This document shows, piece after piece, positions 1 through 23,052 of a stretch of 64,000 nucleotides of DNA. Source of the stretch: Candidatus Woesearchaeota archaeon (GTDB taxonomy: Archaea > Nanobdellota > Nanobdellia > Woesearchaeales > GW2011-AR4); assembly GCA_016185755.1 (NCBI GenBank), contig JACPMX010000014.1, positions 1 through 64,000 of the forward strand, in the 5' to 3' direction. Both the position numbers and the translations under genes were made by a program. The notes below the pieces were generated by a model. It saw nothing but the letters and a program-made list of their open reading frames with translations, did no database searches and had not been told where the DNA came from. How positions within the stretch are numbered: position 1 is the first letter of the stretch; each line of letters begins with the position of its first letter.

Positions 1-337
1 TATAAACGCAAAATCTAACCCAGAAATTAGGCTCGCGCTTCGCCTTCTTCAAAAAGCTCTCGAAATCTATCGGCTTGTTCCTTGCATCATGCACAACAAG
101 CCTTTTCTTCTCCATGAGGTAGAGCGCTTCTATGAGGGAAAGCTGCACCCTTCCGTCATCAAGAAGGTTTCCGTACCTGCTTTGGTTATAGAGCTCTCTA
201 GCGTTATCCGAGCTTTCTGTAAGCACCCTTTCCCTTGAAAAAGCAGCTTTGACAGGCTCTTTTATTTGCTTTTCCTCAATCTTGTCCTTTTTCGGAAGAA
301 TTTCCTCTGGTTTGGTTTCTTCCTTCTTCTTGGCCAT
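1..337 (-). CDS. endA: tRNA-splicing endonuclease EndA, N-terminal part (truncated by window edge)
   Basis: My translation from 337: MAKKKEETKPEE...ARELYNQSRYGNLLDDGRVQLSLIEALYLMEKKRLVVHDARNKPIDFESFLKKAKREPNFWVRFCVY; matches the EndA N-terminal domain pattern (ELYxxxxxG..G.vqLSLiEALYLxE). Open to the window edge so absent from the ORF track. Confidence 0.8.
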   Translation of the reverse strand, partial: MAKKKEETKPEEILPKKDKIEEKQIKEPVKAAFSRERVLTESSDNARELYNQSRYGNLLDDGRVQLSLIEALYLMEKKRLVVHDARNKPIDFESFLKKAKREPNFWVRFCVY

Positions 338-353
338 TGTAAAATATGCTGGG

Positions 354-884
354 TTAAGGTATTGTTGGGTATTTAAAAAGGTTGTTAGTTTTTATCAAAT
401 CATCTTTTACCGAGTCATTATACCTCAAAATAAAATGTAGAAACCATTTTAAAAATACTCCAGCATTTTCTGCAGACTTTCTATCATCCGTAGAATTAAA
501 ACTTTTATTCCCATGTACGATATTACCTCTAATGATATAACAAATATCTAACATAGCAATTAACTTCTCAGCATAACTGCTTTTTACATTTTTCAATATA
601 TCCATCTGACGCTTCGAATCTTTCAATATTTTAGGTCCATCATATTCATTTTTTATCTCATTTTCCTGAAAATACAACAACTGGTTTTTACAAGAATCTA
701 ATATCTGTTTTTGGATTGGGTTCTTTATATCTCCAATGAGCTCGTTACGACGTAGAATCTTATCTTTCGTTAAAATTTCCAAACCGATGTACAAACAAAC
801 AAAATTCATATACTCCAAACTACTGTTATTTGAACGGTCAAGCCATTCCTTCGCTCGCTCTTTATTCCACTTCATTTTCGACAT
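354..884 (-). CDS. HEPN-like domain protein
   Basis: 176 aa, all-helical character with IIRGNIVHGNKS (R-x4-H, as in Apea-like HEPN). Confidence 0.5.
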   Translation of the reverse strand: MSKMKWNKERAKEWLDRSNNSSLEYMNFVCLYIGLEILTKDKILRRNELIGDIKNPIQKQILDSCKNQLLYFQENEIKNEYDGPKILKDSKRQMDILKNVKSSYAEKLIAMLDICYIIRGNIVHGNKSFNSTDDRKSAENAGVFLKWFLHFILRYNDSVKDDLIKTNNLFKYPTIP

Positions 885-899
885 AACATCAACTTTTAG

Positions 900-1148
900 T
901 TGCCATTTACTATTTACGAAATATTTAAATATGGTAATATCTTCATCGGAGATATGGGGGCTTTGAGAGATAATTTTAAATTGGTATTTAGTAAGTGTTT
1001 TCCAGTTACTTTAGCATTAAGCATTATATTATTCTTAGTGTTATGGATGTATTTTGATAGAGTAAAAAGTTTTCAATTATCTTTATTTATTAGTGCAATA
1101 TTCATGTTTGTTCTCTTCTTTTATTACAAATATAGAGGTAAAAAATGA
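900..1148 (+). CDS. small membrane protein, hypothetical
   Basis: ORF with two hydrophobic segments; no homology recognised. Confidence 0.3.
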   Translation: MPFTIYEIFKYGNIFIGDMGALRDNFKLVFSKCFPVTLALSIILFLVLWMYFDRVKSFQLSLFISAIFMFVLFFYYKYRGKK

Positions 1149-1434
1149 GTTTAACCATCAAAGATGGCATAAAATTTGGAATAGGGTTTTTCATCGGATT
1201 TGCAATATTCTTTTTTATATTATTTCTCTCATTATTAGTTTATTTTGCTTATTATCTCTCATCTTATTTGAAAACATGATTATCTCCTCGTAAGTTTGCT
1301 TGAATTAAATCTATATAGTTATTAATTTCAAATTTTAATCTATTATGAATATCCATTGTTACATTTAAATATTTTCTATTTCTTACGCCTTCCAAACAAA
1401 AACCCTTATAAATTATATTCCTATTCTCTATAGT

Positions 1435-2325
1435 ATGCAAATCACATTTCTTGGCACATCTTCAATGGTGCCGACAAAGGAAAGGAACCAGATTGCCGTT
1501 TTCCTCAGCTACGGCTCTGAAGGCATCTTGTTTGACTGCGGCGAAGGCACCCAGCGCCAGTTCAAGATAGCGGGAATAAGCCTCACAAAAGTCACAAAAA
1601 TCATCATAAGCCACTGGCACGGCGACCACGTTCTTGGCCTGCCTGGGTTGATGCAAACGCTGAGCTCCCTTGACTACACGGGCCGGCTTGAGATTTATGG
1701 CCCAAGCGGAACAAAGAAAAGGATGGAAAAGATGTTCGAGGCATTTGTATTTGACAGAAGGCTTGATTTTGATGTTAAAGAGGTTAAAACAGGCGCTTTT
1801 TTTGAGAATGATGATTTCATCATTGAAGCATTTCAGTTAGAGCATGGGATAGAGACGCTTGGCTACAGGTTTATTGAAAAGGACAAGAGGAAAGTTGACA
1901 TGAAAAAAGTCAAAAAATTTGGCATTCCATCCGGGCCTCTTATTGGAAAGCTGCAGCAGAGCAAGCCGATAGACCACAACGGCAGGAAAATCATGCCTGA
2001 TGATGTGACATACATAGAAAAAGGAAAGAAAGTTGCTTACATAACAGATACGGCCCTATGCGACGCATGCTACAAGACAGCAGAGAATGCAGACTTGCTC
2101 ATCTGCGAGGCTACATACTCGTCAAAGCTTGTTGACAAGAGCGAGGAACACGGCCACATGACAGCAAAGCATTCTGCCCAGATTGCAAACAAGGCTAATG
2201 TAAAGCAGCTCGTTTTGATACATTTCAGCGCAAGGTACAAGAACACGCAGGAGCTTGAAGAGGATGCAAGGGACATTTTCGACAATGTAATCTGCGCAAA
2301 GGATTTCATGAAGATAGAACTTTGA
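1435..2325 (+). CDS. rnz: Ribonuclease Z (tRNA 3' endonuclease)
   Basis: MQITFLGTSSMVPTKERN, SHWHGDHVLGLPGL metallo-beta-lactamase motif, C-terminal HFSARY. Confidence 0.95.
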   Translation: MQITFLGTSSMVPTKERNQIAVFLSYGSEGILFDCGEGTQRQFKIAGISLTKVTKIIISHWHGDHVLGLPGLMQTLSSLDYTGRLEIYGPSGTKKRMEKMFEAFVFDRRLDFDVKEVKTGAFFENDDFIIEAFQLEHGIETLGYRFIEKDKRKVDMKKVKKFGIPSGPLIGKLQQSKPIDHNGRKIMPDDVTYIEKGKKVAYITDTALCDACYKTAENADLLICEATYSSKLVDKSEEHGHMTAKHSAQIANKANVKQLVLIHFSARYKNTQELEEDARDIFDNVICAKDFMKIEL

Positions 2326-15718: not shown

Positions 15719-15795
15719 GTTCCCACCTTTATTTTTAAATCCAAGTTTTTTCCGAGCCGTAAATATTTAAACATTGCGTTTATACTTTTTACTAT

Positions 15796-15900
15796 ACGGC
15801 TGTGATCTAGTGGCTATGATTCGACCTTCCCAAGGTTGCTACCCGGGTTCAAATTGCGGCAAGCGAGCATGCTTGTCCCATGCAAGTCCCGGCAGCCGTA
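15796..15900 (+). tRNA. tRNA-Gly(CCC) with 33-nt T-loop intron (15854-15886)
   Basis: ACGGCTG/CAGCCGT acceptor, CGACC-TTCCCAA-GGTTG anticodon arm, CCGGG-TTCAAA|intron|T-CCCGG T arm; intron folds into BHB-like structure. Spliced length 72 nt. Confidence 0.93.
15854..15886 (+). other. tRNA-Gly intron at 59/60
   Basis: Outer helix CCGGG/CCCGG; central TTCA/TGCA (3 of 4 pairs); bulges AA|T and AG|T; inner helix TGCGGCAAGC/GCTTGTCCCA (one mismatch, one GU), loop GAGCAT. Confidence 0.88.
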
Positions 15901-22673: not shown

Positions 22674-22751
22674 AATAATTTATTCAACAATTCTGTTTAT
22701 ATAGATTTTGATTGGAATTAGAATGATATAAGTGCGGGGAGCAGGATTCGA

Positions 22752-22782
22752 CTGCAGACCCCCAGGCTTTCGCTTGGGAATT
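22752..22782 (-). other. tRNA-Leu intron 3 (T-loop, 54/55), 31 nt
   Basis: Central GCAG/CTGC, bulges GT|A and AG|T, inner helix ATTCCCA/TGGGGGT, loop AGCGAAAGCC. Confidence 0.88.
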
Positions 22783-22809
22783 ACCTGCGAAGGCACTAAG
22801 CCAATAGAT

Positions 22810-22857
22810 GGCTCATGAGTACTTCATCAGCCTTTTGAGCTTCGTTACTCTTCCAAA
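22810..22857 (-). other. tRNA-Leu intron 2 (37/38), 48 nt
   Basis: Outer ATAGA/TCTAT, central CTCA/TGAG, bulges AG|T and CC|A. Confidence 0.88.
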
Positions 22858-22864
22858 CTTGAGT

Positions 22865-22890
22865 ATGGACGTCTAGCACCCTGCCAAACT
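22865..22890 (-). other. tRNA-Leu intron 1 (30/31), 26 nt
   Basis: Central helix GGAT/GTCC, bulges AG|A and AT|A, inner helix GTTTGGC/GCTAGAC, loop AGGGT. Confidence 0.85.
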
Positions 22891-23052
22891 CTATCCCGTT
22901 TGGCCACTCCGGCATCCCCGCATAGGTTTTAGAATAAGAATTTGGTTTAAAAATCTTTGCTGGAAAAATCAATATTCGAGATGCATTGCGAATCCTTAAA
23001 ATTTCAAAAACGAACAATAAACGACTTTTTGCTTACTAAGCATGATAAAAGT

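Follow-up and report, generated by a model that had tools for sequence, protein, structure and literature searches.

Why is the tRNA-Gly(CCC) gene at positions 15796–15900 (+ strand) interrupted in its T-loop, and is the interruption removed from the transcript? The gene lies in a stretch of 64,000 nucleotides, here called the window, from an organism that groups with Candidatus Woesearchaeota. A sequence-only reading of this DNA had taken the gene for a tRNA-Gly(CCC) with a 33-nt insertion between bases 59 and 60. We conclude with high confidence that the insertion is a BHB intron at 59/60 of the only tRNA-Gly(CCC) gene detected and that it belongs to a family which has probably been moved or copied between tRNA genes.

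The tRNA-Gly(CCC) gene and the introns of its genome

The window was analyzed with a purpose-written template parser which allows introns anywhere and makes no prior assumption on their place. The parser found tRNA-Gly(CCC) with a single 33-nt intron at 59/60 (15854–15886, + strand), the gene call itself running from 15796 to 15899 and leaving A73 at 15900. With the whole window parsed on both strands the gene scored 68.6, compared with 43.6 for the top non-tRNA stretch, and the insertion that had been read from the letters was thus found again by an independent parser. The 5′ exon (positions 1–59, 15796–15853, + strand) is recognized by the parser and by our custom tRNA model R1, and the 3′ exon (positions 60–73, 15887–15900, + strand), seen by the parser and in the sequence, contains A73 and does not encode CCA. 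From the sequence the acceptor stem reads ACGGCTG/CAGCCGT, the anticodon loop TTCCCAA and the T-stem CCGGG/CCCGG, and full pairing is kept in the acceptor, anticodon and T stems across both exons. When the intron is removed, a cloverleaf with a 7-nt T-loop results, the body of which matches the intronless orthologs. Model R1 scored the region 15796–15900 with 62.3 bits, a value that is not independent because R1 was built from spliced tRNA sequences of the clade and the spliced form of this gene is one of its rows. About 25–36 nt upstream of tRNA base 1 there is a TATA-like A/T-rich stretch, taaatatttaaa (15760–15771, + strand), which could serve as promoter.

Neither ARAGORN nor Rfam at gathering scores reported a tRNA anywhere in the window, and Rfam at permissive thresholds gave chance hits only. 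As both programs miss tRNA-Gly(CCC), too few tRNAs are probably being counted in such genomes. The only other tRNA that the parser found in the window (22734–22921, − strand, score 55.7) is of class II with a Leu-like body. It carries a 31-nt T-loop insertion at 54/55, so that the second T-loop intron claimed for this window is indeed present, and in the anticodon loop a second insertion, of 74 nt, which may hold nested or adjacent introns. The parser anticodon TTG of this tRNA is unsettled and stands against its Leu-like body.

Orthologs were collected by a BLASTN search of tRNA-Gly(CCC) against 60 related genomes, the matches being parsed; L039, L040, L042, L052, L053, L065 and L078 are without a parse in the region used for the ortholog comparison. 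In two genomes of the same genus, G005 (L035) and G001 (L041), the ortholog has a very similar body and lacks the intron. A 37/38 intron only is present in the orthologs of G004, G015, G020 and G021, and the ortholog of G014 carries the same 59/60 intron, the matched stretch being 93% identical. Many other loci also matched the intron portion of the query; these are tRNAs for other amino acids with introns at 59/60. The first pair, A1-U72, had been pointed out as unusual for tRNA-Gly. We confirm the pair and find it conserved in the orthologs except that of G004, which has G1-C72; it is therefore a trait of the lineage and does not indicate decay. A second intact tRNA-Gly(CCC), raised as a counter-possibility by the sequence-only reading, was not found by model searches and parsing of the source genome, which is 93.7% complete.

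RNA-model searches together with parsing yielded 38 tRNA genes of the source genome and then two more, an incomplete set in which Asp, Phe, Trp and others were not found. Introns were present in 34 of these 40 genes (43 introns in total) and absent from six. This bears out the suspected richness in introns genome-wide: about 1.1 introns per tRNA gene lies above the mean of 0.84 given for Thermoproteales (PMC8450103). Eighteen introns are located at 37/38 and 13 at 59/60. The latter account for 13 of the 25 non-canonical introns found and make 59/60 the leading non-canonical site; 54/55 introns, for which a survey had likewise been proposed, are also present. The remaining introns were placed in the D-arm and at 8/9 or 9/10, 53/54, 54/55 and 42/43, their exact positions being less sure, and for several genes of class II or with more than one intron the anticodon labels of the parser are uncertain. 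All 11 of the 59/60 introns in the 38-gene set have an outer helix with five of five pairs and a central helix with at least three of four, whereas the D-loop and 53/54 introns, as placed, fall outside the strict BHB motif.

The splice motif and its conservation

The T-stem bases 49–53 (CCGGG, 15843–15847) are the 5′ strand of the outer helix and pair with CCCGG at 15888–15892. The T-loop bases 54–57 (TTCA, 15848–15851) are the 5′ strand of the central helix and pair with TGCA of the intron (15881–15884), with U55 opposite C as the one mismatch. The 5′ bulge AA/T (15852–15854) places the predicted 5′ splice site after 15853, and the 3′ bulge AG/T (15885–15887) places the predicted 3′ splice site after 15886, as judged from sequence and BHB geometry. 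Between the bulges lie the inner helix and the loop GAGCAT (15855–15880, all features being on the + strand); the helix is formed by 15855–15864 and 15871–15880 and has ten positions with one C-C mismatch. The helices and bulges described before from the letters were correct in all checked details. Two 3-nt bulges thus flank a helix of four positions, which is BHB geometry apart from the single U-C mismatch, and in its sequence the motif is otherwise canonical in form.

A central and inner helix at least as good arose in only 12 of 100,000 dinucleotide shuffles of the intron. Minimum-energy folding of the pre-tRNA gave the T-stem and the inner hairpin without D-arm or central helix. Single-sequence folds are poor for tRNAs and we therefore gave this fold little weight. 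RNAalifold on the intron alignment recovered just the outer helix and three inner pairs. Given this partial recovery we counted the named BHB structure explicitly in the alignment, using 26 homologous 59/60 introns for covariation (alignment A2). The BHB structure had 86.7% of cells paired compared with at most 45.8% for slid structures, a control that favours the BHB structure, alignment and structure being derived from the same family. Changes on both sides were seen in 12 of the 18 pairs, and the covariation score of 0.347 was reached by no shuffle (0.135 in shuffled alignments). In the outer helix 100% of cells were paired and four of five pairs had changed on both sides; in the inner helix this was true for six of the nine pairs counted.

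In the central helix the pair between exon base 57 and the intron is A-U in 20, G-C in five and G-U in one of the 26 introns and is never broken, a result which is independent of the reservation about the slid structures. The five G-C cases are found in tRNA-Gly(CCC) (two genomes), tRNA-Gly(GCC) and tRNA-Arg(TCG) (two genomes), from which we conclude that the intron follows its host's T-loop. Base 55 and its intron partner are mismatched in 23 of the 26 introns, nearly always as U against C, so that the central helix usually has three of four pairs. In tRNA-Thr(GGT) of G005, base 55 is a G and the intron C opposite to it is paired. All three BHB helices are supported across the 26 homologous introns.

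These findings bear on two other explanations of the insertion. That it damaged tRNA-Gly(CCC) and left the gene unused is extremely improbable, since the failure of ARAGORN and Rfam to find the gene and the odd A1-U72 pair (rejected as a mark of a pseudogene, the orthologs sharing it) would fit such damage, but no other tRNA-Gly(CCC) turned up in the genome, the acceptor, anticodon and T stems of the gene are fully paired, 13 tRNAs of the genome, all interrupted at this one site, would have to count as pseudogenes, and the covariation between exon and intron speaks for selection. Very improbable, too, is that the insertion is retained and that the mature tRNA-Gly(CCC) has a long extension of the T-arm. 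The inner hairpin is stable and its helix conserved, as would be expected of such an arm. However, close relatives have the same tRNA without the insertion, and the two 3-nt bulges together with the pairing between base 57 and the intron are a signal for splicing, of no obvious use to an arm that is kept. Moreover, the contact between D-loop and T-loop requires an intact T-loop.

We therefore favour a BHB intron which would be spliced. In the transcript the T-stem would form the outer helix, T-loop bases 54–57 and the 3′ end of the intron the central helix, and bases 58–59 with the first intron base the 5′ bulge. Following the known archaeal pathway, an alpha-type EndA would cut both bulges and RtcB would join the exons, giving the T-loop TTCAAAT. 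The spliced tRNA would be expected to read TTCAAATCCCGG across 59/60, without the 33 nt.

Probable spread of the 59/60 introns between tRNA genes

A search of 85,462 GTDB genomes with the intron pattern matched 16 stretches, all in Candidatus Woesearchaeota MAGs and many of these from groundwater. We also used a covariance model of T-arm plus intron made from one genus (R2), which scored the tRNA-Gly(CCC) intron, one of its own rows, with 73.9 bits. R2 matched 99 of the 292 genomes of the order at E ≤ 0.001 and, in a sample of the phylum, 52 of 377 genomes at E ≤ 1e-4, of which 49 are from the same order and three, weakly, from other orders of the class; with a one-genus model and strict filters these counts are lower bounds, and the E-values are rough. 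The 59/60 family was found in tRNAs for Gly, Ala, Arg, Ser, Glu, Leu, Trp, Thr, Pro and Tyr, and the R2 matches that were parsed belong to tRNAs for Ala, Arg, Ser, Pro, Glu, Trp, Gln, His, Ile, Cys, Met, Tyr and Gly. Among many of the more distant R2 matches there is a second class of introns, which end in TGAAAG and pair perfectly with TTCA.

Comparison of the introns between isotypes argues for movement. The intron of tRNA-Ser(TGA) in G017 is identical in 32 of 32 positions to that of tRNA-Arg(GCG) in G148, a genome of a different family of the order. In a pairwise comparison of 38 introns, those of Trp, Leu, Glu and Gly tRNAs showed 94% identities, the unpaired loop GAGCAT included, and introns that are identical or 91–97% similar were found between Arg and Ser, Gly and Trp, Glu and Leu and other pairs. 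For 24 of the 30 introns having an orthologous intron, an intron from a tRNA for another amino acid was at least as similar as that of the ortholog.

The same likeness could arise in genuine BHB introns by convergence or old inheritance, with no movement at all. We regard this as unlikely, but as a more serious alternative than a damaged gene or a retained arm. The inner helix and the splice motif constrain the sequence, and the intron sample was gathered by similarity to the tRNA-Gly(CCC) intron, which inflates the likeness between isotypes. Mean identity is 0.78 within one tRNA species and 0.74 between species, a slight difference that is compatible with either view. Hard to reconcile with convergence or old inheritance are the complete match between a tRNA-Arg and a tRNA-Ser intron from different families, the extension of the 94% matches into the unpaired loop and the patchy presence of the intron at orthologous genes. 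Movement of the 59/60 intron between tRNA genes is therefore likely; we do not call it proven because the sample was picked by similarity and because the genomes are MAGs, in which some of the cross-family matches could be binning errors. Candidate routes would be reverse splicing followed by recombination, gene conversion between tRNA genes, or other processes. The exon half of the 59/60 motif consists of G53, TTCRA, A59, T60 and C61, which are nearly alike in all tRNAs. Since this is the near-universal core of the T-arm, portability of the intron is plausible. A 37/38 intron has to match the local anticodon sequence.

Some further tRNAs deserve mention. Apparently two introns share one T-loop in L045 (G003), L066 (G005) and probably L160 (G020), which are tRNA-Ser(TGA) and one tRNA-Gly(TCC); an intron at about 53/54 is combined with a member of the 59/60 family after TTCAAA, and the two would have to be spliced out one after the other. 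Several longer introns at 37/38, 53/54 and 59/60 (L045, L046, L047, L059, L066) contain the palindrome GGGTTTCGCTTCGCTCAAGCCC or variants of it, as though a small repeat had entered them. There are also multi-copy class II tRNAs of serine type with a GCCGCGG acceptor, G73, a serine-like variable arm and their own 59/60 intron subfamily, located in the source genome (G000) at C12:130911–131022 (L130), C16:46833–46946 (L025), C6:128059–128173 (L029) and C3:212384–212501 (L183) and in relatives at L164–L172, L175, L176, L179 and L184–L187. Their predicted anticodons GAG, CAG, AAG, GAC, GAT and GAA all have A35 and would read hydrophobic NUN codons; possibly these are serine-misincorporating or non-translational tRNAs. 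The serine-like copies L174, L178, L180 and L181 have insertions of 52–84 nt with strong hairpins in the variable arm or T-arm.

The splicing endonuclease and comparison with other archaea

The window begins with part of an alpha-type EndA gene (2–337, − strand), the N-terminal part, cut by the contig end and identified by PF02778, profile A3, BLASTN and its open reading frame. One full EndA gene is present in the source genome, on contig C9 (L030; PF01974, 97.6 bits). Both are 97.7% identical over 304 bases by BLASTN and look like strain variants or overlapping contig ends. A comparison of window positions 1–1902 with L030 positions 1737–2694 shows the EndA 5′ region at 97.7%, about 1 kb of unrelated sequence and then an 88% match; this overlap of the C12 start with the C9 end may reflect strain variation or an overlap from binning or assembly. 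The ORF adjoining the EndA gene (1435–2325, + strand) is RNase Z-like by sequence, an enzyme of tRNA 3′ end maturation. RtcB is encoded in the source genome (PF01139, 579.9 bits).

A PF01974 match was found in 178 of the 183 genomes of the order that are at least 90% complete, nearly always exactly one. In 46 aligned Woesearchaeal alpha proteins there is no insertion between YG and LSL-EALYL, the place of the Crenarchaea-specific loop, where the alpha chain of A. pernix has a 9-residue insertion. The catalytic Tyr, His and Lys are present by alignment. No beta subunit was detected in the order with an alpha query, which also missed crenarchaeal beta chains in the PDB, so a divergent beta subunit could escape this search. 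A weak second PF01974 match (12.3 bits, L031) was rejected as beta subunit as it sits in an unrelated ORF. The nearest solved chain is 3IEY_A, chain A of the N. equitans enzyme, which is of the (alpha-beta)2 type, and a C-terminal Trp (W194 in A3) aligns with the Trp of (alpha-beta)2 alpha chains, a position which is Tyr in M. jannaschii.

The presence of one alpha gene in almost all genomes of the order, the absence of an insertion at the CSL/ASL site and the aligned catalytic residues resemble the alpha4 EndA of the M. jannaschii type (PDB 1A79). The alpha4 endonuclease is described as cleaving canonical introns only (PMC4033280, PMC6379350), yet the source genome is full of non-canonical introns. 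Relaxed motifs are removed efficiently only by (alpha-beta)2 and epsilon2 enzymes (PMC6379350). An alpha4 enzyme would accept a strict BHB at a new position; relaxed introns, as present elsewhere in the genome, would be unfit for it, unless the Woesearchaeal enzyme is different or has a beta subunit that escaped detection.

The position 59/60 is a known site of non-canonical introns in archaeal tRNAs (Yoshihisa 2014, PMC4090602). By its sequence the intron resembles such introns in position, geometry, the presumed EndA and RtcB pathway and the coexistence with 37/38 introns; it has the tested features of archaeal BHB introns, and its splicing is predicted. Crenarchaeota and Nanoarchaeota have been named as rich sources of non-canonical tRNA introns (PMC4090602), whereas here the introns are found in an order of Woesearchaeota, and 59/60 leads the non-canonical sites of the source genome. 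Large-scale transposition of tRNA introns is known in Thermoproteales (Fujishima et al. 2010, via PMC4033280, PMC4090602), where, as in our case, similar introns occur in different tRNA species and genes have many introns. In Thermoproteales, however, the similar introns occupy canonical and non-canonical sites and the endonucleases are of the (alpha-beta)2 type with the Crenarchaea-specific loop, while here there is one recognizable family at one site and an EndA which by sequence is alpha only and without the loop. No description of tRNA introns in Woesearchaeota came up when open-access papers were searched by text. What is new is the lineage, the dominance of one family at one site with a near-universal exon half, and the endonuclease type.

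As a tentative general picture, for which the odds are somewhat less than even, we suggest that Woesearchaeales harbour a mobile mini-intron that targets the universal T-arm. As the only exon bases on which its splicing motif draws are near-invariant, it would insert at 59/60 whatever the isotype, and an alpha-only endonuclease would remove it. What is known of how archaeal tRNA introns spread comes mainly from Thermoproteales. The Woesearchaeales provide a second, distant order, with a recognizable intron family, sequence variants and empty sites in sister species; since the portability is also readily explained, it becomes possible to trace gain, loss and direction. It is also a test case for the rule by which a broad repertoire of tRNA introns is accompanied by an (alpha-beta)2 or an epsilon2 endonuclease with a special loop. 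If the suggestion is true, the mini-intron is removed by an alpha-only endonuclease, a type thought unfit for a broad non-canonical repertoire.
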